Source of the DNA: Cytophagia bacterium CHB2 | GTDB lineage: Bacteria > Zhuqueibacterota > Zhuqueibacteria > Zhuqueibacterales > Zhuqueibacteraceae | DNA length: 64,000 nucleotides | Reading direction: 5' to 3' | Assembly (NCBI GenBank): GCA_030263535.1 | Contig: SZPB01000001.1 | Location: 1-64,000, forward strand | Part shown: piece after piece, positions 44,195 to 55,653 of the stretch | Numbering within the stretch: the first letter of the stretch is position 1 | Layout of the letters: every line of letters begins with the position of its first letter | The notes under the pieces: generated by a model | What the model was told of the DNA's origin: nothing | What the model saw: the letters and a program-made list of their open reading frames with translations, nothing else | Database searches by the model: none | Program-made: the position numbers and the translations under genes

Positions 44195-44707
44195 ATGAAG
44201 AAGACAGTTTTGGTTTTAGCCCTGATCACAATTGTACAAGGCAGTTCGATGGCTTTGGCGCAAGAAAAGAAACTCACCTTTCATGCGGCCGGCGGCGCCA
44301 GCGCACCGCTCAGCAATCAAACCTTCCGGGATACGTTCAGCGTGGGTGCGAATGGCAGCATCGGTCTTGATGTGCGTGTTTCGCCGAAACTCGTGGTGGG
44401 CCCGGAGTTGGGATACAGCGCGTTTGGACTTGATCGTGAAGGTTTTTTGAAGTTGAACGAGGTCGAGGACACCGATGACATTAAGATCAAGGGCGGCGAA
44501 ATGAGCGTGGCCGGGATTCTGGGCATTGCCAAGTTTCATCTCAACACCGTTGAAGCCAACACCGGGTTCAACCTGGTTGCGGGCGCCGGCTTGTCGGCCT
44601 CGCGCATTGCGAAAATTGCAATCGAAACGCCGGAGGGCGATTTTGAGATCGCTTCAGAATCGGCATCACAATTTGAAATCTTTGATCGCGGCTTTGTCAA
44701 GGAATAG
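44195..44707 (+). CDS. Outer membrane beta-barrel protein, apparently cut short
   Basis: 170 residues from ATG 44195 (SD AGAAGGAGAACAC). Signal peptide (VLVLALITIVQGSSMALA) then alternating strands (LTFHAAGGASAPLSNQTF, VGPELGYSAFGLDREG). It ends in FEIFDRGFVKE, with no terminal aromatic residue as OMP barrels need for insertion. The reverse-strand cassette begins in the next few bases, so the 3' end may have been lost on insertion. Confidence 0.65.
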   Translation: MKKTVLVLALITIVQGSSMALAQEKKLTFHAAGGASAPLSNQTFRDTFSVGANGSIGLDVRVSPKLVVGPELGYSAFGLDREGFLKLNEVEDTDDIKIKGGEMSVAGILGIAKFHLNTVEANTGFNLVAGAGLSASRIAKIAIETPEGDFEIASESASQFEIFDRGFVKE

Positions 44708-45260
44708 CTTTTACGATTTCACCCTTGGGCAAATAGTCAGGATGAATTTGCAGGTGAGCGGATTTTTTCGTCAACACTGGCCTGGCCAGAGCTTTGGTCG
44801 AAGCCGATCCAGCGAGTTCATAAATACACAAGTAGATTGGAAGACCAGAGGTTCTGATTGTTTCTTGCAGCACCTGCGCCACGCGATCTTCTATGTCTTC
44901 GGGAAAAAGCTCTTCTACAGACTGCCGGTTTTCAGCTTTTCTTTTATCGGTCAATGCGCGCTTGATCTTCTCGTCTGGCCAACCCTTCCTGCGATACTTT
45001 TCGAGCACGTGCATTTCAAGCTTAGCTGCCTTGCGCGCAGACTCCTGTTCTTGATCGTCATCCTGCTCGAAGTAGTGCCCGGCAAGGCAACAAGAGCAGC
45101 CCTCAGGAATTCCGATGAGGTATGCCGCATAATTCGCGGGCAGCTTTCCGGCCAATTGTGTGCTCGTACACTTTATGACCGCAAGCATCCTCAAAGAACG
45201 CCGGACGAAACGCACCACATTGGGGTCTTTCGGAAAACCGATTTCGAGGAAGTAACACAT
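44697..45260 (-). CDS. Cassette protein of unknown function
   Basis: 187 residues from ATG 45260. N-terminus CYFLEIGFPKDPNVVRFV, a Cys-rich segment IPEGCSCCLAGHYFEQ, then a charged helical C-terminus. Last gene of the minus-strand cassette. No recognised domain. Confidence 0.6.
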   Translation of the reverse strand: MCYFLEIGFPKDPNVVRFVRRSLRMLAVIKCTSTQLAGKLPANYAAYLIGIPEGCSCCLAGHYFEQDDDQEQESARKAAKLEMHVLEKYRRKGWPDEKIKRALTDKRKAENRQSVEELFPEDIEDRVAQVLQETIRTSGLPIYLCIYELAGSASTKALARPVLTKKSAHLQIHPDYLPKGEIVKAIP

Positions 45261-45323
45261 ACTGGCTCTGGTCTTCTTTTTTTGGTTCCAGCTTGCCTGG
45301 GTTATGGGATTACATCTTGCCCA

Positions 45324-45812
45324 TCACGGTGTAAGCTGTTTCCTCAGAGTTACGTTCCAATACTTTCTTTCCGTGGCGTTGCCTGCTTCATCGTAAAAGA
45401 TCGCCTTCTTCTGATGCGGCTCATCAATGGGCACATAACCAAGGCGCTCGTACAAAGCCAACGCGCGAGGATTATCGACGGGATCAACACCAACGTGCAT
45501 CACACTGTGCCCAAACGCGACTGCCAGCTCTTCCATACGCGCAATCATGCTTGTTCCGATGCCCATGGAACGAAAGCGCTGCGCCACGTACAAATCACTG
45601 ATCTTCGGGATGTGCGACTTGGGCGAGCCTTGTGAGGGCTGGCGCAAGAACAGCATGGCAAACGCACGGATTTCGTTATCCTGTTCATAGACCAGAAACC
45701 GGATGCCCTCGCCATCGGCCTCGCGCAGATAGCGCTGAAGTTGCGTGGGGGCATTGCGTAGTTTGGTTAATTCGCTTATGTCTGATTGGGTTGCGTCACG
45801 GATGAGGAACAT
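45324..45812 (-). CDS. GNAT-family N-acetyltransferase
   Basis: 162 residues from ATG 45812 (an in-frame TTG at 45854 would add 14). Start FLIRDATQSDISEL, acetyl-CoA binding RSMGIGTSMIARMEELA and ALALYERLGYVPID. A typical GNAT protein, possibly self-modification or detoxification; probably cargo beside the cassette core, 111 nt from it. Confidence 0.85.
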   Translation of the reverse strand: MFLIRDATQSDISELTKLRNAPTQLQRYLREADGEGIRFLVYEQDNEIRAFAMLFLRQPSQGSPKSHIPKISDLYVAQRFRSMGIGTSMIARMEELAVAFGHSVMHVGVDPVDNPRALALYERLGYVPIDEPHQKKAIFYDEAGNATERKYWNVTLRKQLTP

Positions 45813-45923
45813 CAGTGCAAAATTGTTTTGAGCTGTGAAAAACTGCTCGGCCAACTCGCGGTTCTCAGAGACTAATCCGCAGCCCTTGATTGAGTTCCAG
45901 ATGACCCATAGCGATCAGGTCTT

Positions 45924-47672
45924 CTATCTGATGTTCCTTGATATGTGGCTAAGGGCTTCCATTTTTGACTTGAACATGTCACTTATCAACTTCAAGTTGT
46001 TCGCCTTGTTTTGCATTTTCTTCTGCTGGATTAGAAGCCGAATTTCTTTCGAACTCTCTGGATCACTCGCCGCCATTGCTTCTAATTCTGCAATTTCTTT
46101 TCGATCTTCTTCAAGTATGGTCTGGAAGTCACCGTCTCCGCTATAATCTGAGTTGGGTGTTCCTGTTGGTTGCGCGTGGGGTTGTTGTACCGGTAGTTCT
46201 GGTTCACGCAGCCCAGGACGGGTTCGAAGGCGATCATCCCGCTTTTTTTTCATCTCTTCCTCGGAACCCCAAAACCCAGATACTCTCCCCAATTCGATAT
46301 AAGTATTAAACCCCTGTTCATTCGCCTGCACAAAAATAGGATTTATTGATTCCGGTAGCTGTGGACAAACGAATTGAACATATGCCATCTCTATGAACAT
46401 AACACCAAAAAGTAAGGAAATCTCTTTCACGCTGAGCATCTCGTAAAATTCGCTACTTAAGTTACTGTAAATTTTTTTCCTATACAGCAGTTCCGCCAAT
46501 CCTCTGAAAAGGAGCACGGCCTGTTCAGCAGTATAATCATCCACCCGCATATCAATGCGTCTGCGCGGTAGTTCTAACCCAAGCTTCTCACGTATTTGCT
46601 GCACAGCGTTAAACATCGGCCTGAGATGGGCACCTTCAGCTTTAGCAGAGACCTCCTCAAGATCATAAATTATCAATTGACGCCAGTAATCGATTAGAGA
46701 CTCGTTCCCCCACTTCGCACCTAGCTGCCGAACGAGTGCAACGGGAAAAAGAATGGCCCCTACAGTTTGCTCATCATTTAACGACTCATAAAACATCTGA
46801 CGCAGAAAATTTCGCTTGTCTTCTGCAAGCTTTACATTGAAGATTGCCTCTACAAACGAGACGAAATCCATAAAAGCTTTACGGTCCTCTTCATTATCAA
46901 AGTCTTCAACATCTTCAGCATTCTTTTCAGATAGCAAATCGGATTTTTCGCTTTGAGGAGTAACAACTGGCGTGGCTGCGACGGTCGCAATGGACGGTGC
47001 AGAACTGGGTACCCGCACTGCCGAGGAGGCACTTGTGGGTTCCCAAGCGGAGCAGGAGTGATGCGGGTTATGCATAAGACAGATGACATACTCTTCATCC
47101 GCTGAGAGCTTGCCGCAATAGTCCAAGTAATTTGGCCTGGTCAAAAGCCTGCCCTTCGCGTTGTATGCGCCAGAGATTTCAAAAGCTTTGCGAGAGGCAA
47201 CACCTTCCCGATGTTTGTTGAGCAAATTGTCTGAGGTAGAGGTTGAACTCCCTGTAGCGCTACTTTGTCTGGCCATACTCCCGTAAGCTTCCTCCATTTT
47301 TTGATCCCTTGCCACACCTTGTGGCGTGATGCGATGCACACAAGTTTTACAACTATTCGTTGGGGGACTCCCGGCCTTGAAGTCTGTGCAGCGACCGCCA
47401 AAATTCTTTACTCCACAAATTAGATAGATTTCCTCCTTCTCCCGAAGACCACAAAACTCCGACATAACCGGACGAAAACCCCAAGCTTCGTCGTTAGCGT
47501 TTTCTCTTTTTGTTTTAACCTGTGCCTCGGAGCCTTTCTGCTGACTCTCGTCCTCACCAATTTTGTTCAGCGCGGTGGAGATGGCGGCGTCAGTGGTGCC
47601 GATTACCTGAACGAATAACTGGCTTGCCGGCTTGATCCGGCGAAAATGAATACATTGCTGGCAGATACCCAT
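45924..47672 (-). CDS. Large cysteine-module protein of the cassette
   Basis: 582 residues; ATG 47672 with AAGGAGACATATC. Two copies of a cysteine module at the N-terminus: C4-x2-C7-x-H9 with C74, C86, C95, and C108-x2-C111-x-H113 with C186, C198, C207. The spacing of the last three Cys is identical in both copies (12 and 9 residues) and each ends Cys-x2-aromatic. A disordered Ser/Thr/Ala linker (about 205-245), a helical middle domain (about 255-460) and a charged coiled-coil C-terminus follow. No known domain. The likely metal is zinc or an Fe-S cluster. Possibly a scaffold between the ATPase and the coiled-coil protein. Confidence 0.75.
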   Translation of the reverse strand: MGICQQCIHFRRIKPASQLFVQVIGTTDAAISTALNKIGEDESQQKGSEAQVKTKRENANDEAWGFRPVMSEFCGLREKEEIYLICGVKNFGGRCTDFKAGSPPTNSCKTCVHRITPQGVARDQKMEEAYGSMARQSSATGSSTSTSDNLLNKHREGVASRKAFEISGAYNAKGRLLTRPNYLDYCGKLSADEEYVICLMHNPHHSCSAWEPTSASSAVRVPSSAPSIATVAATPVVTPQSEKSDLLSEKNAEDVEDFDNEEDRKAFMDFVSFVEAIFNVKLAEDKRNFLRQMFYESLNDEQTVGAILFPVALVRQLGAKWGNESLIDYWRQLIIYDLEEVSAKAEGAHLRPMFNAVQQIREKLGLELPRRRIDMRVDDYTAEQAVLLFRGLAELLYRKKIYSNLSSEFYEMLSVKEISLLFGVMFIEMAYVQFVCPQLPESINPIFVQANEQGFNTYIELGRVSGFWGSEEEMKKKRDDRLRTRPGLREPELPVQQPHAQPTGTPNSDYSGDGDFQTILEEDRKEIAELEAMAASDPESSKEIRLLIQQKKMQNKANNLKLISDMFKSKMEALSHISRNIR

Positions 47673-47691
47673 GATATGTCTCCTTAATTAT

Positions 47692-50409
47692 TTATGAGAT
47701 GAACCGCTTAAATTCCTCTTCAATATATTGACTAATTTCTTCGTCTTTCACTTCACGAAGCAACAAAGAAGTCAGTTCATTGCCGACATCAAATAGTTCG
47801 CTCTGCTGCAGATGCGCTGCTTCAATAATTCTTGTGTCGGTAATAGTTTTCAGATCGTCCACTGCGCGCCCGGCAGCTAACCGGTCCGCTATTATCTTAT
47901 CTCTGGCCTGGATTGTCCTTTCGATGTCTGCTTGGATATCCATATCTCTGATCAATTCTTCTGAAACTACACCTGTCTTTAAAGATTCTCGCAGCTTATC
48001 CCTCAATTCCATGTCCAGCTTTGTTTTTTCAACCGCCATGTCCCTTGGAATAGTCAATGTGACCATATTGCGGTAGGTGATCTGATTAATGGGTGATTCT
48101 TGTGTTTCGGGCTCCAGTGTTTGCAGGACCAGGTTGATTCGGGCTCGGATATGCTCATGTTCAGAGAGTCGGACGCCTTCATCCGAACGGATCGCGCGAC
48201 GTTGCTGGCTATATACTTTAGTATCACTGAATTGTGCCATTTTGTTTGCCGGATCATTTAACCTTTGGTACTGTTGCTCAAGCTCACCCAACTCTCTCTT
48301 GACCACCTGATCAAGTTCCCGTCGCGCCACCTCCTGCTTGGTCAGCACTTCATTCAGCGCAACTTGATGCTCAGGTCCTCGCCGTTCTTCATAAAGAACT
48401 TGTTGTAACGTCCATTGATCACGATTTATCTGCGCCTGTACGTGATCTCGATGATCCTTCAGTGTTTGAAGTTGTGCACGGAAATAACTGTCCAGTTGCT
48501 CTCGCTTCTGTTGTTGGCTTGCCTCCAGTTGCCGACGCTGTTTATTCAGCGTACGTTCAGCCTTAGGACTGGCCTGATTTGCTTGCTGTTGCAGCTCGGA
48601 CATTGCTTGTTGTTGCCTGGCTTGGAGGTCAGCTACTGCTTTAGCCTGCTCCTGGAAAACAATTTGCTCAAGTTGCTGACGCTGCGCGAGCTGTTCGCGC
48701 TGGGTCTCTTGAAAGCGGTTGAGTGTTTCTTTCTCTGCTTTGCGATCTGCCTCACGCCCCACATTAGCCTCTGGCCGCTTATCAGCATGGTTTCTCTCTA
48801 ATTTCTGTTGTTGGCGAGTGTGTTTCTCGTTTAACGCCTGTTCTTCTTTCGCGTGGTTGAGACGGGTTAGTTGCGTTTTTACCTCATTCTCGAGCTTCAT
48901 GTTTTCCAACTGTTGCTTGGCCAGAACTTCCCTTAGCGCCTCCTGGTGCTCAACGCCCTGGCTTTTTTCGGCCAGAGTACGTTCTAATCCTTTTTGATCT
49001 TGTTGCATCTGCGTTTGCAATTGCTCGCGATGATCCTGAAGTGCCTGAAGCTGTGCCCGAATATGGCCATCCAGTTGCTCTCGCTCTTGTTGCTGCCGCG
49101 CCTCAAGTTGTTGGCGATCATTATCCAGCGCCCGACCGGCCTCTGGACGCTGTTGCAACTCAGATATTTCCTGTTGCTGCCTGGCCTGAAGATCAGCAAC
49201 TGCTTTAGCCTGTTCCTGAAAAACACTTTGCTCGAGTTGTTGACGTTGCGCGAGTTGTTCACGCTGGGTCTCCTGAAAGCGATGGAGTGTTTCCTTTTCC
49301 GCATCGCGATCCATCTCACGAGTTGCATCAGCCTCATCAGCATGTTTTTTTGTCAGATCCTGGCCATGGTTATTATGCTGCTTTTTTTGCGCATCAATTT
49401 CTTCCGCATAAAACTTGACGGCGTGCTGTTGCTTCTCGTCAATTTTGTCTCGCATCTGGGCAAGTTCACGGCTTTGATCGCGGATTTGGCGCGCATCGAC
49501 TTCGCGCCCTGCTTCTTGTTGTTCTGTTTTCGACGTCTCTTTTATCGGATCAGGGGAATATCGGGTGGTTCGGTCCAATGTATTTATTGCTTCTTTCTCT
49601 GACCCCTCCTGCACATTCTGTGGTTCATTAAGTGATTGAATTGATCGCAATTGGTCAAGTTGTGTTAATTGTGCTTTGATATTATTTTCGAGCTTCTCGT
49701 TTTCCAACTCTTGATTGGCCAACACTTCCTTCAACGCCTCTTGATGCTCAGCGTTGGGCCGTTCTTCATAAAGTGCATTTTGCATTCTTCCTTGATCTTT
49801 ATCCATCTGCACTTGCAATTGCTCGCGATAATCCTGTAGTGCCTGAAGCTGTACTTGGATCTGTTTATCCAATTGCTCTCGCTCCTGTTGCTGTCGTGTC
49901 TCAAGCTGTTGGCGATCATTATCCAGCGTACGATCGGCACGAGGACTGGCCAGATTTGCACCCTGTTGCAGCTTAGAAATTTCATCCTGCTGTCTGGCCT
50001 GGAGATCAGCTACAGCTTTAGCTTGCTTCTGCAAAACACTTTGTTCTAGTTGCTGACGCTGTGTGAGCTGTTCACGCTGGGTCTCCTGAAAGCGATTGAG
50101 TGTTTCCTTCTCTGTTTTGCGATCTATCTCACGTGTTGCAGCAGCCTGTGGTCGCTCATCTGCCTGAACTTTCGCCAGCTCCTGGCGCTGGCGATCATGC
50201 TGCTCCTTTAGCGTCTGTTTTTCCTTCGCGTGAAAGTCGAGGGTGCGCTGTTTCCTTTCGTCAACCTTGTCAAGTAGTTGGGCAAGTTCCCGGCTTTGAT
50301 CGCGTTTGTGGAGCGCACCAGCTTCACGGTTCGCTTGCTTTCCTGCAGTTTTCGAGGCATCAGTCGTCTGATTCTGATCCCCTTTATGTTGGCGTTTATG
50401 GTCGGACAT
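47692..50409 (-). CDS. 905-residue coiled-coil protein with three internal repeats
   Basis: ATG 50409 abuts the ATPase stop and has CGGAGGAATAG upstream. Gln/Glu/Arg/Lys-rich, nearly all coiled coil. A block starting EKETL-x-RFQETQREQL occurs at residues 100, 371 and 559, and is followed each time by QAKAVADLQARQQ. The last ~170 residues (after about 735) are a non-repeated helical domain, with TIPRDMAVEKTKLDMELRDKL. Proteins of this shape act as filaments, tethers or scaffolds. No motor or nuclease motif. Repeats are also visible as DNA repeats, so the copy number may vary between strains. Confidence 0.82.
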   Translation of the reverse strand: MSDHKRQHKGDQNQTTDASKTAGKQANREAGALHKRDQSRELAQLLDKVDERKQRTLDFHAKEKQTLKEQHDRQRQELAKVQADERPQAAATREIDRKTEKETLNRFQETQREQLTQRQQLEQSVLQKQAKAVADLQARQQDEISKLQQGANLASPRADRTLDNDRQQLETRQQQEREQLDKQIQVQLQALQDYREQLQVQMDKDQGRMQNALYEERPNAEHQEALKEVLANQELENEKLENNIKAQLTQLDQLRSIQSLNEPQNVQEGSEKEAINTLDRTTRYSPDPIKETSKTEQQEAGREVDARQIRDQSRELAQMRDKIDEKQQHAVKFYAEEIDAQKKQHNNHGQDLTKKHADEADATREMDRDAEKETLHRFQETQREQLAQRQQLEQSVFQEQAKAVADLQARQQQEISELQQRPEAGRALDNDRQQLEARQQQEREQLDGHIRAQLQALQDHREQLQTQMQQDQKGLERTLAEKSQGVEHQEALREVLAKQQLENMKLENEVKTQLTRLNHAKEEQALNEKHTRQQQKLERNHADKRPEANVGREADRKAEKETLNRFQETQREQLAQRQQLEQIVFQEQAKAVADLQARQQQAMSELQQQANQASPKAERTLNKQRRQLEASQQQKREQLDSYFRAQLQTLKDHRDHVQAQINRDQWTLQQVLYEERRGPEHQVALNEVLTKQEVARRELDQVVKRELGELEQQYQRLNDPANKMAQFSDTKVYSQQRRAIRSDEGVRLSEHEHIRARINLVLQTLEPETQESPINQITYRNMVTLTIPRDMAVEKTKLDMELRDKLRESLKTGVVSEELIRDMDIQADIERTIQARDKIIADRLAAGRAVDDLKTITDTRIIEAAHLQQSELFDVGNELTSLLLREVKDEEISQYIEEEFKRFIS
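48586..50112 (-). repeat. Three long direct repeats within the coiled-coil gene
   Basis: The conserved 50-codon block lies at 49963-50112, 49150-49299 and 48586-48735 (minus strand). Spacing between the block starts is 813 and 564 nt, so the second unit differs in length. The DNA is similar as well as the protein, which could support recombination. Confidence 0.75.
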
Positions 50410-52032
50410 CTATTCCTCCGATTGGGGCGGATTAAACTCCCCTGGTACATGAACGAACTGAGTGAATGACTTCCCCGTGGAGCCGTCGAGCGAACCAAGC
50501 ACCACTGCATCGCCTTTCTGGAACAACTGGGTCAATACCGAGGTGGGCAGAGACTTTCGTTCCCTTAGCTCCTTTTGGGTGCTGGAACCCAAACCATCTT
50601 TACTGCGCGATGTCCCCTGCGACGTGAGATACCAATCGCTTTCCCCGGCAAGCTTGGTTGCTTCCTCGGCAGTTTCATTATCCACCAACCGCATGAAAAT
50701 CTTGCCGCCAAAATTGCTAAACACAGATCGCCAGGCTTCCTTAAGAGAAGATGCCTGAAGTACATTAACCGATTGGGTGGCGAGCAACCCCATACAACCA
50801 TTCTGTCGTGACTGCGAGAAAAAATCTCCATCTCCCATTGGCTGACCAGGCAATTCTGATGCTACCTGGCTATATTCGTCGCAAGCGATGATAAGGGGCC
50901 GCTTAAAGTTTTTGAGTTTGCGTGCGCGAACTCGTTCAAGCCTACTCAATACAGAACGCTGAAATAGACACTTGATTAGAGTGCAGAGCGTCTTCGCTAG
51001 CGCTGGTTCGGAGGGCGACAAGCTGACAAGGACAATCTTGCCCTCGTCTATGATTCGATCATAGAAATTTGATCTCCTTTTGGCGAGTTCCTTGCTCTGC
51101 ACGAGTGAATAGCAACTGTAGCGCGACCGTTGGAACGCACTATATGCACGCGTGATGATGGCTTCGATGGTGGCAATGTTTTCATTTTCTTGGCGAAAGA
51201 AATTCTCAATCTGGTTAATAGCTCGCTCGGCATCGTAACGTTCATCCTCTGATGACAGATTTTCAAGATTCTTTCGCTGCCGGCGCGCGATATGTTGGAT
51301 GCGTCGTTCCGGTTTATCCGAGGTTAGTGTATTATCTAACTCTACTATGAGAAGAGCATCCAATAATTGTTTCAGGGTAACGACTTCATGACCCAAACTC
51401 AGCAGTGAGCAAGCAGCCCCGAAAAGGTTGCCCCATGCCAGCAGCCAGTAAGGATCGGAAGTGCTAACCCCGGCGCTTTGGGCGGCAAGAACCAACTGAT
51501 TCCCGAGTTCGTACGGATCTAGAGCAGAGTTGATGACATTCTCGGCTTCTTTGCGCTGTATGAGTTCGTCAGTGTTTAGGACAACCAGATCGTCTTCGCG
51601 CCCTGCCATTTTAACTATCTCGCGCACGTCATCAATGAGTGCCGCCTTGGGATCGAGGATGAGGCCACCATATTTTAGGTCTTGGTTGTCTTTATTTAGA
51701 GCGAGAATCTGCCGCAGAAGGTAAAGAAGCAGGTGCGTCTTACCAGAGCCAGGAGCGCCAAAGATGCCATAAGAAGCGCAGAGCCCATCATTTTTTATCC
51801 AAATGTTTTCGTTAATATTTGTGAGGGAATGCACGAGCCGTTGCATCGGCAACTCGCCAGGACGCGAGAGGCGCTGAGAGTAATCGACAGTAGGCATTCC
51901 TTGCGGACGCCCAACATCAAAAAATGATGCTTTTGCGGATGGGCGTTCTGCTGCCTGCACCAGTTCCATTTCCTGGCCGACGTGAATACTGCCTTTGACT
52001 TTAATCTTTTTGTCGATCTGTGTATCACTCAT
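50410..52032 (-). CDS. VirD4/TraG-like P-loop ATPase
   Basis: 540 residues from ATG 52032 (SD AAAGGAGATAAATAC); an upstream TTG/ATG extension is not supported. Walker A GIFGAPGSGKTH near 88-99, GLILDPKAALIDDV, Walker B PLIIACDEYSQV, and a TraG/D-like C-terminal segment DFFSQSRQNGCMGLLATQSVNV. It lacks the two N-terminal membrane helices of conjugative coupling proteins. The family moves DNA or proteins through secretion or conjugation channels, but no relaxase, VirB4 or channel gene is seen nearby. Possible job: pumping or remodelling ATPase of an uncharacterised complex. Confidence 0.85.
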   Translation of the reverse strand: MSDTQIDKKIKVKGSIHVGQEMELVQAAERPSAKASFFDVGRPQGMPTVDYSQRLSRPGELPMQRLVHSLTNINENIWIKNDGLCASYGIFGAPGSGKTHLLLYLLRQILALNKDNQDLKYGGLILDPKAALIDDVREIVKMAGREDDLVVLNTDELIQRKEAENVINSALDPYELGNQLVLAAQSAGVSTSDPYWLLAWGNLFGAACSLLSLGHEVVTLKQLLDALLIVELDNTLTSDKPERRIQHIARRQRKNLENLSSEDERYDAERAINQIENFFRQENENIATIEAIITRAYSAFQRSRYSCYSLVQSKELAKRRSNFYDRIIDEGKIVLVSLSPSEPALAKTLCTLIKCLFQRSVLSRLERVRARKLKNFKRPLIIACDEYSQVASELPGQPMGDGDFFSQSRQNGCMGLLATQSVNVLQASSLKEAWRSVFSNFGGKIFMRLVDNETAEEATKLAGESDWYLTSQGTSRSKDGLGSSTQKELRERKSLPTSVLTQLFQKGDAVVLGSLDGSTGKSFTQFVHVPGEFNPPQSEE

Positions 52033-52045
52033 GTATTTATCTCCT

Positions 52046-52564
52046 TTATTTGGGAGCACTCTTGGGCTCGAAAAGCGGGCACTGACCTGTCGGATTCATG
52101 CGCGCGCATAGCGCGTAAATTTGCATGATTTCACCGGTAACGGGATTCATCGTCGCACGACCGCTCTCCGCGAGTTCATCTAGCGCAGCCGTGTCATCAG
52201 CTTTAGCGCGTCGAATAAGTTCTTGTCCACGCTTGACGCTTTCCTTTGCTAATTGGCGTACATGTTCCGGCTCCCCATCCTTGAGCGCATTGGCGATCAC
52301 GTCTTGCAATTGTGCGTCGTATGGCGTGTAAGCCGCGCACCAGGCGTAATGATAAGGCTCATAATTAAACGGTTGGCCAGCATCCAATCGCTGCATCTCA
52401 ATTTGGCGACGCTCCTGATCTTGCTGCTCCCACTCAAGTTTCGATTTCAGCACACCAGGTGCTTGTAAGTCAGATTGGCTGAAGAGTTGCGCCTTGGGGC
52501 GCATTCGCTGGTGCTGGCACTTGCTGCATATAGCGATAGAGATATTTTCATTTTTTTTAGTCAT
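52046..52564 (-). CDS. Small cysteine-module protein of the cassette
   Basis: 172 residues; ATG 52564 after AGGTGAATC. C13-x2-C16-x-H18 matches the 582-residue protein; C76 then C153 and C162 (9 apart) followed by PLFEP give the same end as the second module copy (Cys-x2-aromatic-Glu-Pro), with an inserted stretch between C76 and C153. So the same metal-binding module with a loop insertion. Unknown family. Confidence 0.72.
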   Translation of the reverse strand: MTKKNENISIAICSKCQHQRMRPKAQLFSQSDLQAPGVLKSKLEWEQQDQERRQIEMQRLDAGQPFNYEPYHYAWCAAYTPYDAQLQDVIANALKDGEPEHVRQLAKESVKRGQELIRRAKADDTAALDELAESGRATMNPVTGEIMQIYALCARMNPTGQCPLFEPKSAPK

Positions 52565-52571
52565 GATTCAC

Positions 52572-52988
52572 CTAAAAGGTCAACCACTTTGCGAAAATGC
52601 GCTTTCCTTCGCGACGCAGAAGTAAAGGTAGGAGACGACCATCCTTTGTATCTGCTTGGATCCATTGGCTTTCTGGAAAATCACTTAATACAAATACTCT
52701 ACGCATATATACATCCTCCCCCTCCCACCAGTATACCATACCACCGCCTAGCGAAGGGTCATCCTGAGTAAACATTAGCGTAATATCTTTTGTGATAAAT
52801 GGTTGATAATCTTGCAAGTGCTGCAATTCAAACGGCCGACGAGAATTTAGTGCTGCGCTCACACCTATGGCTATCCCAAAACCAGCCAAAAAAAAGTAAA
52901 GCCATATCATTCGCTTGTTGATATGAAAATTATAGCCCAACAAGTTTGCGATGGCAGCTATAATGCTTTTTGAATCGTCATTAGACAT
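52572..52988 (-). CDS. Small membrane-anchored protein with paralogous C-terminal domain
   Basis: 138 residues; ATG 52988 after ATCGGAGGAAAT. One membrane helix (about residues 27-47, MIWLYFFLAGFGIAIG). The C-terminal 80 residues (FVLSDFPESQWIQADTKDGR, LPLLLRREGKRIFAKWL) are closely related to the 106-residue protein upstream. Probably places the shared domain at the membrane. Confidence 0.75.
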   Translation of the reverse strand: MSNDDSKSIIAAIANLLGYNFHINKRMIWLYFFLAGFGIAIGVSAALNSRRPFELQHLQDYQPFITKDITLMFTQDDPSLGGGMVYWWEGEDVYMRRVFVLSDFPESQWIQADTKDGRLLPLLLRREGKRIFAKWLTF

Positions 52989-53013
52989 ATTTCCTCCGAT
53001 AAAATGTAATTAT

Positions 53014-53169
53014 CTACTTTGATAATAAATCTGCTACAAGAATACCGAAGTTAAATCCGCTTAAAAACATCCAAAACCGCCCCCAGTATTTGTTTTCAAT
53101 GTTAAAATAAAGCCAAAAGCAACAAATCGCACCTATCGCAACCATCAAGTATACAATGACACTAAACAT
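53014..53169 (-). CDS. 51-residue membrane peptide
   Basis: ATG 53169 with the same GCGGAGGAAAT ribosome site as its neighbour. Two hydrophobic helices (FSVIVYLMVAIGAICCFWLYF and a second near WMFLSGFNFGILVADLL). Could be a holin-like, anchor or regulator peptide of the cassette. Confidence 0.65.
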   Translation of the reverse strand: MFSVIVYLMVAIGAICCFWLYFNIENKYWGRFWMFLSGFNFGILVADLLSK

Positions 53170-53334
53170 ATTTCCTCCGCAAACGTTTAATAGATTCAAG
53201 TTCCGTTTTGCTTGTAAGCAATTGCTATTTTGTTTGTTTTGTCGAATTCCGGCTTACGCCTGGTCATATCCGCTGGATATCGTATGAAAGAATGATGCAA
53301 TAAAGTTGTATTGAATCTAGCGACAATTAACCTC

Positions 53335-53655
53335 CTATTCCAGCCACTCTCCGAACATGCGAAGCCCTACGCGGCGCAGGGCCAAAGGCAGGCGATGGCC
53401 GTCCCGCGTAGTTGCTTGAAGCCACTGGCCTTCGGGAAAGTCAGCATACGTCAGTTGCACAGTCATACTTCTATCACTCCCGTACATCACGTAACCACCT
53501 ACTAATGGGTGAGGCTGCAAAGTCACCCAAACGTCACTATTAGGGTGCCGATAAATATTAGGGTTCATAGGATCCTGCAAAAGAGGCAGTAACTCAAAGT
53601 TTCGAACCGTTACTGGCGGCCCTCCCACTGACTCCAGATTTTTGTTGAAAGGCAT
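53335..53655 (-). CDS. 106-residue protein sharing a C-terminal domain with the membrane protein
   Basis: ATG 53655 after TTAAGGAGGTTTACC. YADFPEGQWLQATTRDGHRLPL and RRVGLRMFGEWL repeat the C-terminal sequence of the 138-residue protein. No membrane helix. First gene of the cassette. Possibly an adaptor or competitor of the anchored copy. Confidence 0.75.
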   Translation of the reverse strand: MPFNKNLESVGGPPVTVRNFELLPLLQDPMNPNIYRHPNSDVWVTLQPHPLVGGYVMYGSDRSMTVQLTYADFPEGQWLQATTRDGHRLPLALRRVGLRMFGEWLE

Positions 53656-55041: not shown

Positions 55042-55653
55042 TTAATCGTCGTCATCATCGCGATCATGCTTTTTGAGCTTGATCTTTCCGCGCAGCGAGA
55101 ACTCGCCTTTGTTCGTTGCCAAGCTGGCCGTTCCCGTAAACTCTGCGCTGCCGCTGGCGCCCTTGAACTTGCCGGTTCCACCCGTAAAGACGTACTCGCC
55201 GGAAAATGTGACATTGCCTTGTGCATCCGGAGCGCCGCTGATGCCGCTATGCGTGGCATACAGCTTGTCTCTCTTGGACATGGTGAATACATCCGTGCCC
55301 GTCAACTCCGGCGGCGTTTTGGTGAAGTCGACAGTTTGTTCGCTGGAAACCGTGCTCTTGCCCAGTTGCGAAAGCCTGCCAACGCCTTCAAATGGCGTCG
55401 AAACGACCACGGGTATGGCGCCCGCCGTACCGCAATCGACCGGTGTGCCGCTGCCATCGACACAGACAAGCGGAATGAACTGAAAGGTTGTTTCAAAGCT
55501 TCCCTTGATTGAAACCTGTTTTTTCCCTTTCTTTTCCAGGGATGCGGCATTCTCAAGGGAACCGTTTTGTGGCTGCGCCTCGAATGGGCTTTCGTTGGAA
55601 CAACCCACCATGACAAGCAGCGCCAACATCAGGAAAAGTGTAAAGCATTTCAT
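55042..55653 (-). CDS. Lipoprotein of unknown function
   Basis: 203 residues from ATG 55653 with GGAGGACATCC. Lipobox LVMVGC near residue 18. Beta-rich core (TGGTGKFKGASGSAEFTGTAS) and an acidic tail DRDDDDD that may bind calcium. Repeated Gly/Ser/Thr segments suggest an envelope beta-sandwich. Unknown family. Confidence 0.65.
   Translation of the reverse strand: MKCFTLFLMLALLVMVGCSNESPFEAQPQNGSLENAASLEKKGKKQVSIKGSFETTFQFIPLVCVDGSGTPVDCGTAGAIPVVVSTPFEGVGRLSQLGKSTVSSEQTVDFTKTPPELTGTDVFTMSKRDKLYATHSGISGAPDAQGNVTFSGEYVFTGGTGKFKGASGSAEFTGTASLATNKGEFSLRGKIKLKKHDRDDDDD

Follow-up and report, generated by a model that had tools for sequence, protein, structure and literature searches.

The question raised by this locus is what kind of system is encoded by a compact minus-strand gene run at 44697–53655 of the window, the stretch of 64,000 nucleotides from the genome of Cytophagia bacterium CHB2 analyzed here. 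VirD4-type motors are the substrate-feeding part of secretion channels, and one gene of the run (E) encodes an ATPase of this known kind; the combination of genes A–G is undescribed in anything searched. The reading developed below, an acquired operon for a stand-alone, membrane-tethered, channel-less motor resembling a coupling complex, was assigned a probability of about 0.4.

Gene Organization and Translation Signals

All nine open reading frames of the region were found to be present and intact. They are listed here together with the gene that adjoins them.

Gene A, 53335–53655, minus strand: 106 aa, soluble, homologous to the cytosolic domain of C; SD AGGAGG
Gene B, 53014–53169, minus strand: membrane peptide of 51 aa; ATG 53169 has an SD, and the reading frame reaches TTG 53199
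Gene C, 52572–52988, minus strand: 138 aa, one predicted TM segment and an A-type domain
Gene D, 52046–52564, minus strand: 172 aa, Cys module CxxC ... C ... YxxC...N....C..F
Gene E, 50410–52032, minus strand: soluble VirD4/TraG-type ATPase of 540 aa; ATG 52032, alternative GTG 52059
Gene F, 47692–50409, minus strand: Q/E/R-rich coiled coil of 905 aa with three diverged repeats; its C-terminal part is distinct
Gene G, 45924–47672, minus strand: 582 aa, two Cys modules; helical middle and C-terminal coil in a low-confidence model
GNAT acetyltransferase gene, 45324–45812, minus strand: Pfam Acetyltransf_1 (3.7e-15); reading frame reaches TTG 45854; doubtful member
Gene I, 44697–45260, minus strand: 187 aa, function not assigned; doubtful member
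Outer-membrane-type gene, 44246–44654, plus strand: 3' part missing compared with the intact copy in the second genome of the species

The seven genes A–G run in one direction on the minus strand from 53655 to 45924 and form an operon. With start codons picked by ribosome-binding site, the gaps are 165 (A–B), 25 (B–C), 7 (C–D), 13 (D–E), 0 (E–F), and 19 nt (F–G); gaps of 0–25 nt, described earlier for most junctions, thus hold at five of the six. Downstream, 111 nt separate G from the GNAT gene and 63 nt separate the GNAT gene from gene I.

Near-identical SD sequences (AGGAGG, GGAGG, or AGGAG) at normal spacing precede each of the six genes other than D, and B and C have the block GGAGGAAATATG in common. 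The strong, similar SDs reported in the first-pass annotation were therefore recovered for these six genes but not for D, where the SD is weak, and none was found at the starts of the GNAT gene and gene I. GC3 is 0.40–0.53 in A–G, 0.62 in the GNAT gene, and 0.55–0.69 in the flanks.

Because the GNAT gene and gene I are spaced off and lack an SD, and the GNAT gene has flank-like GC3, the unit was restricted to A–G. The operon run proposed earlier thus stands for A–G by spacing and SDs and not for the two further genes as firm members: these are doubtful and weakly attached, and their membership of the operon is not demonstrable. Genes A–G themselves are not chance reading frames, being long, consecutive, and provided with ribosome-binding sites.

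The ATPase Encoded by Gene E

In Pfam, protein E matched TraG-D_C (3.6e-9, above the cut-off) and TrwB_AAD_bind, and more weakly HerA DUF87. Against PDB sequences, phmmer gave a single match, IcmO/DotL (4.6e-7, residues 82–487), which by sequence is a likeness at the superfamily level only. In PADLOC, E matched mad8 of the MADS defence system (2.3e-11), a match that is probably to be expected for many VirD4-like ATPases.

An alignment with 42 full-length relatives showed agreement at the Walker A residues G92, G95, G97, K98, and T99 and at the Walker B block C384-D385-E386-Y387 (CDEY); R409-Q410 and T419-Q420-S421 are also kept, as are 55 of the 117 highly conserved columns. E has no N-terminal TM segment: over its first 90 aa, hydropathy peaks at 0.23. 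Of the 42 relatives, 41 have a TM-like segment there. The tree does not place E in any sampled clade and leaves it on a long branch of 2.2 changes per site; its identity to the nearest relatives is about 25–38%. Judged by its sequence, E is a very divergent coupling-protein ATPase of the T4CP superfamily with the catalytic motifs kept, in agreement with its initial description as a soluble VirD4/TraG-like ATPase.

T4CPs lacking a TMD make up a recognised class (iii), for which a separate membrane protein can act as partner (PMC7431656). As in such VirD4/TraG/TrwB proteins, of which TraJ of pIP501 is an example, E carries the NTP-binding signature, Walker A/B, and the TraG-D_C match, has no TM segment of its own, and is encoded in an operon with separate small membrane proteins. 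Unlike these T4CPs, the A–G operon comes without a relaxase, VirB4, VirB11, or channel, and the six neighbours of E belong to unmatched families.

The Candidate Partner Proteins A–D, F, and G

Proteins A and C share a local block of 62 residues (46% over the aligned length) with a score of 145 compared with 26 ± 4 for shuffled sequences (0/500), which bears out the shared domain proposed for them. By hydropathy, A has no TM segment, C has one, and B (51 aa) is the tiny membrane peptide it had been taken for. A homology between the membrane segments of B and C was also considered; it reached a z of about 2.3–3 only and is not claimed.

The Cys module of D and the two of G (G1 and G2, at about residues 4–98 and 108–211) show modest but real similarity (z 5.3–7.1, 0/500 each), and the signature Y-x2-C-x3-N-x4-C-x2-[FW] occurs in all three; a common Cys module in two proteins, as claimed, is thereby supported. 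Protein F contains 16% Gln and three diverged repeats (60–75% over 75 residues; DNA repeats D1/D2), consistent with its annotation as a repeat coiled coil of 905 residues. The AlphaFold models of A (pLDDT 44) and G (pLDDT 38) were too poor for use.

Searches of Pfam, NCBIfam, PADLOC, and PHROGs gave no acceptable family for any of the six neighbours of E, and for these libraries the earlier statement that no described system is matched is true. Searches of D, F, G, and A/C against PDB sequences gave nothing worth keeping. Among the cassette proteins there was no match to a relaxase, VirB4, VirB11, or channel gene, as the first-pass annotation had stated of relaxase, VirB4, and channel genes, nor to an integrase or replication gene.

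VirD4 ATPases can join dedicated accessory proteins in coupling complexes that recruit substrates, and VirB4 is the signature subunit in every T4SS described (PMC12857230). The Legionella Dot/Icm complex (DotL, DotM, DotN, DotY, DotZ, IcmS/W) resembles the A–G set in combining a VirD4-type ATPase with several partners, which in A–G are co-encoded candidates. It differs in that no PDB sequence match links D, F, G, or A/C to DotM/N/Y/Z or IcmS/W and that A–G includes no channel; we also know of no counterpart of the giant coiled coil F in the Dot/Icm coupling complex.

The main rival reading is that of an anti-phage or anti-plasmid defence cassette with a VirD4/HerA-like motor, which is conceivable but rather unlikely. 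In such a cassette, D and G would sense or hold nucleic acid, F would serve as a scaffold, B and C would be anchors, and the motor would pull or block invading DNA at the membrane. This reading is in keeping with a set of several genes, anchored at the membrane, that joins one motor to many orphan proteins, and with the mad8 match of E, which is also the point of likeness to MADS. However, apart from E no enzyme or effector (nuclease, kinase, methylase, or other) was recognised in A–G, A–D, F, and G have no PADLOC match, and mad1–mad7 are not matched by any of the nine proteins.

Search for Relatives and Recurrence of the Gene Set

The phylum was searched with E, G, A/C, and D in 82 genomes, with the F C-terminus in 80, and with gene I in 81. 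One of the genomes, G081, is a second genome of the window's species (94% complete), which the protein searches with F and I excluded. No convincing match to E, G, A/C, D, the F C-terminus, or I was obtained beyond the window's own genome in these 80–82 genomes, and E, G, A/C, and D are absent from G081. Matches of D remained sub-threshold (E 0.01–0.05; L116, L117), and those of I and F were single and weak.

Two candidates were rejected. A Cys protein adjoining a VirD4 gene in genome G023 (L041, 8420–9328; CSICSHWRG) scored near shuffle level as a homologue of D, and phylum matches of G (E 0.004–0.01; L056–L058) lay in surroundings without a VirD4-type gene and without the cassette.

A search of the phylum with the TraG-D_C HMM detected 16 places in eight genomes, E included; the loci fetched around the others contained conjugation/T4SS or unrelated genes, never the A–G set. 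A near-identity scan with E across 84,980 species genomes and viral contigs, an 8-mer pattern method reaching close relatives only, gave pattern matches and no relative. A degenerate, alignment-guided scan with E yielded 52 distant relatives, mainly in Acidobacteriaceae, and none in viral contigs.

These relatives are paired with a VirB11/T2SSE ATPase, lie in a full T4SS locus (with a VirB4-type TraG P-loop protein, TrbI, and VirB8), or adjoin a Replic_Relax gene on plasmid-like elements. None of A–D, F, and G was detected in their neighbourhoods at a phmmer E below 0.1. Although the acidobacterial VirD4 and VirB11-like pairs and the Replic_Relax plasmid loci contain the nearest relatives of E, these have an N-terminal TM segment and other partners. 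Viral contigs gave nothing with D, G, and A/C, plasmids nothing with D, G, C, the F C-terminus, and I, and phages nothing with G. No description of such a cassette was found in the literature.

Recurrence across genomes, on which the first-pass annotation had staked its proposal, was not borne out: the non-ATPase genes were found nowhere else by these searches, which detect only moderately similar sequences and could miss distant orthologous cassettes. There is consequently no comparative evidence for a conserved system and, with no second copy of the set, operon structure is the one line of evidence for the co-function of A–G.

That the set recurs in no genome reached would also be expected if there were no single system here and the ATPase gene were by chance co-transcribed with unrelated, fast-evolving orphan genes. 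The spacing of 0–25 nt at five of six junctions, the near-identical SDs (with a block common to B and C), and the reuse of both the A/C domain and the D/G Cys module inside one operon make such a coincidence very improbable.

Genomic Site and Probable Origin of the Cassette

The window's own genome (G000) was compared with G081 at this site. The left flank in G081 is 95–99% identical to the window up to 44651. The left breakpoint lies at about 44652, where the outer-membrane-type gene has lost its 3' part in the window and is intact in G081; a deletion apparently truncated this gene and joined it to the end of gene I.

After about 0.6 kb, all that G081 retains of gene I is its last 41 residues (76% identical), and this remnant adjoins an IS-like terminus that forms the contig end. 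A second G081 contig begins in a terminus of this kind, with 29/34 bases alike, and picks up the window sequence at 55042. Since the G081 contigs end in such termini, no clean empty site can be read. The site is rearranged between the strains; gene I probably predates their split, and the simplest reading is that an accessory cassette was lost or interrupted in G081, with contigs broken at the site. On the basis of lower GC3, broken synteny, and the absence of E, D, G, and A/C from G081, A–G was marked as an acquired, strain-variable accessory cassette.

The IS-like terminus, CTACTCGGAGCA, stands next to TA, is possibly IS630-like, and is located at the end of C679 and the start of C592 in G081. 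The same element was observed at the ends of G000 C117 and of G081 C254, C707, C521, and C93; several contigs of both assemblies break at it.

Strain variability as an accessory operon is in line with the defence reading, but a Pfam scan of ten genes in the flanks showed no defence genes and mostly ordinary functions (sulfate-type ABC transporter, cytochrome c, sigma-54 regulator, kinase-TPR).

The site bears equally on a further alternative, namely that A–G is a remnant or accessory part of a mobilizable or integrative element, with E as its coupling protein and the relaxase and integrase elsewhere or lost. In its favour are the IS-like termini at the G081 contig ends, the mobile-element and T4SS loci in which the relatives of E sit, and the soluble VirD4-like ATPases that lie beside TrwC relaxases elsewhere in the phylum, one of them in the window's species (L043, L054). 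Those MOBF modules resemble A–G in their soluble ATPase and in having no visible full T4SS, but they contain a relaxase and no counterpart of D, F, G, or A/C. The cassette genes, moreover, are all intact with mostly strong SDs, and they include neither a relaxase or integrase gene nor one for replication or partition; this origin is accordingly considered unlikely.

Proposed Mechanism

In the preferred motor reading, E, whose family is shown by the profile matches, would form a hexameric ATPase of the VirD4/TrwB type. Since E has no N-terminal membrane segment such as its relatives possess, B and C would keep it at the inner membrane. A docking surface on free and membrane-bound subunits could be provided by soluble A and by its domain counterpart in C; D and G, with their metal-binding-type Cys modules, might act as adaptors that bind the substrate or E, and F may serve as a long coiled-coil scaffold by which complexes are spaced or bundled. 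ATP hydrolysis by E would then move a DNA or protein substrate in the manner of a type IV coupling complex, the whole working like the half of a type IV system that recruits substrates. Because the cassette has no channel gene, the complex would either dock in trans on the host T4SS locus (G000 C84) or work on intracellular substrates.

The placement of E in the T4CP superfamily with Walker A/B, R-Q, and T-Q-S kept supports this model, as do the missing TM segment of E next to two small membrane proteins in the operon, DotL as the sole PDB match, and the tight spacing with strong SDs. The VirB4- and pilin-type T4SS genes of the host make action in trans possible. Against the model count the lack of any sequence link between A, B, C, D, F, or G and accessory coupling proteins, the cassette's lack of a relaxase, VirB4, VirB11, and channel, the single copy of the set, and the poor predicted structures of A and G.

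The same genes could represent an undescribed class of tethered, channel-less motor system, in which a giant repeat coiled coil and Cys-module adaptors would organise a soluble VirD4-type ATPase into an apparatus of its own, for pumping, filament formation, or defence, that needs no type IV channel; this is considered quite unlikely. Translocation, filament, and defence roles of A–G are all hypotheses, and A–G probably represents a known kind of motor complex in an unusual stand-alone form. If the operon is coherent, its motor accompanied by anchors, adaptors, and scaffold but by no channel or relaxase, it would show that a coupling complex can be a free-standing module, and this could account for some of the VirD4/TraG genes that have no T4SS close by. 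The weight of this is limited at present to one locus with no second copy.

Other VirD4-Like Loci and Host T4SS Genes

In Acidobacteriaceae (L061–L103), a VirD4-like ATPase gene is followed by one for a VirB11/T2SSE-type ATPase, with several copies per genome in many; examples with no full T4SS in view are Silvibacterium (L062, L063, L094) and strain TAA 166 (L081, L095, L096). The soluble VirD4-like ATPases that adjoin TrwC (MOBF) relaxases are located on G013 C297 (L043, 1–4268) and on C231 of G081, the window's species (L054, 164–5468), T4SS genes not being visible in either module. In the window's species, T4SS genes were observed on contig C84 of the window's own genome (L055, 5748–15252) and on G081 C569 (L053). 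They comprise a VirB4-type TraG P-loop ATPase, a T4SS pilin, and a TraG-like ATPase with a hydrophobic N-terminus, a possible partner in trans.
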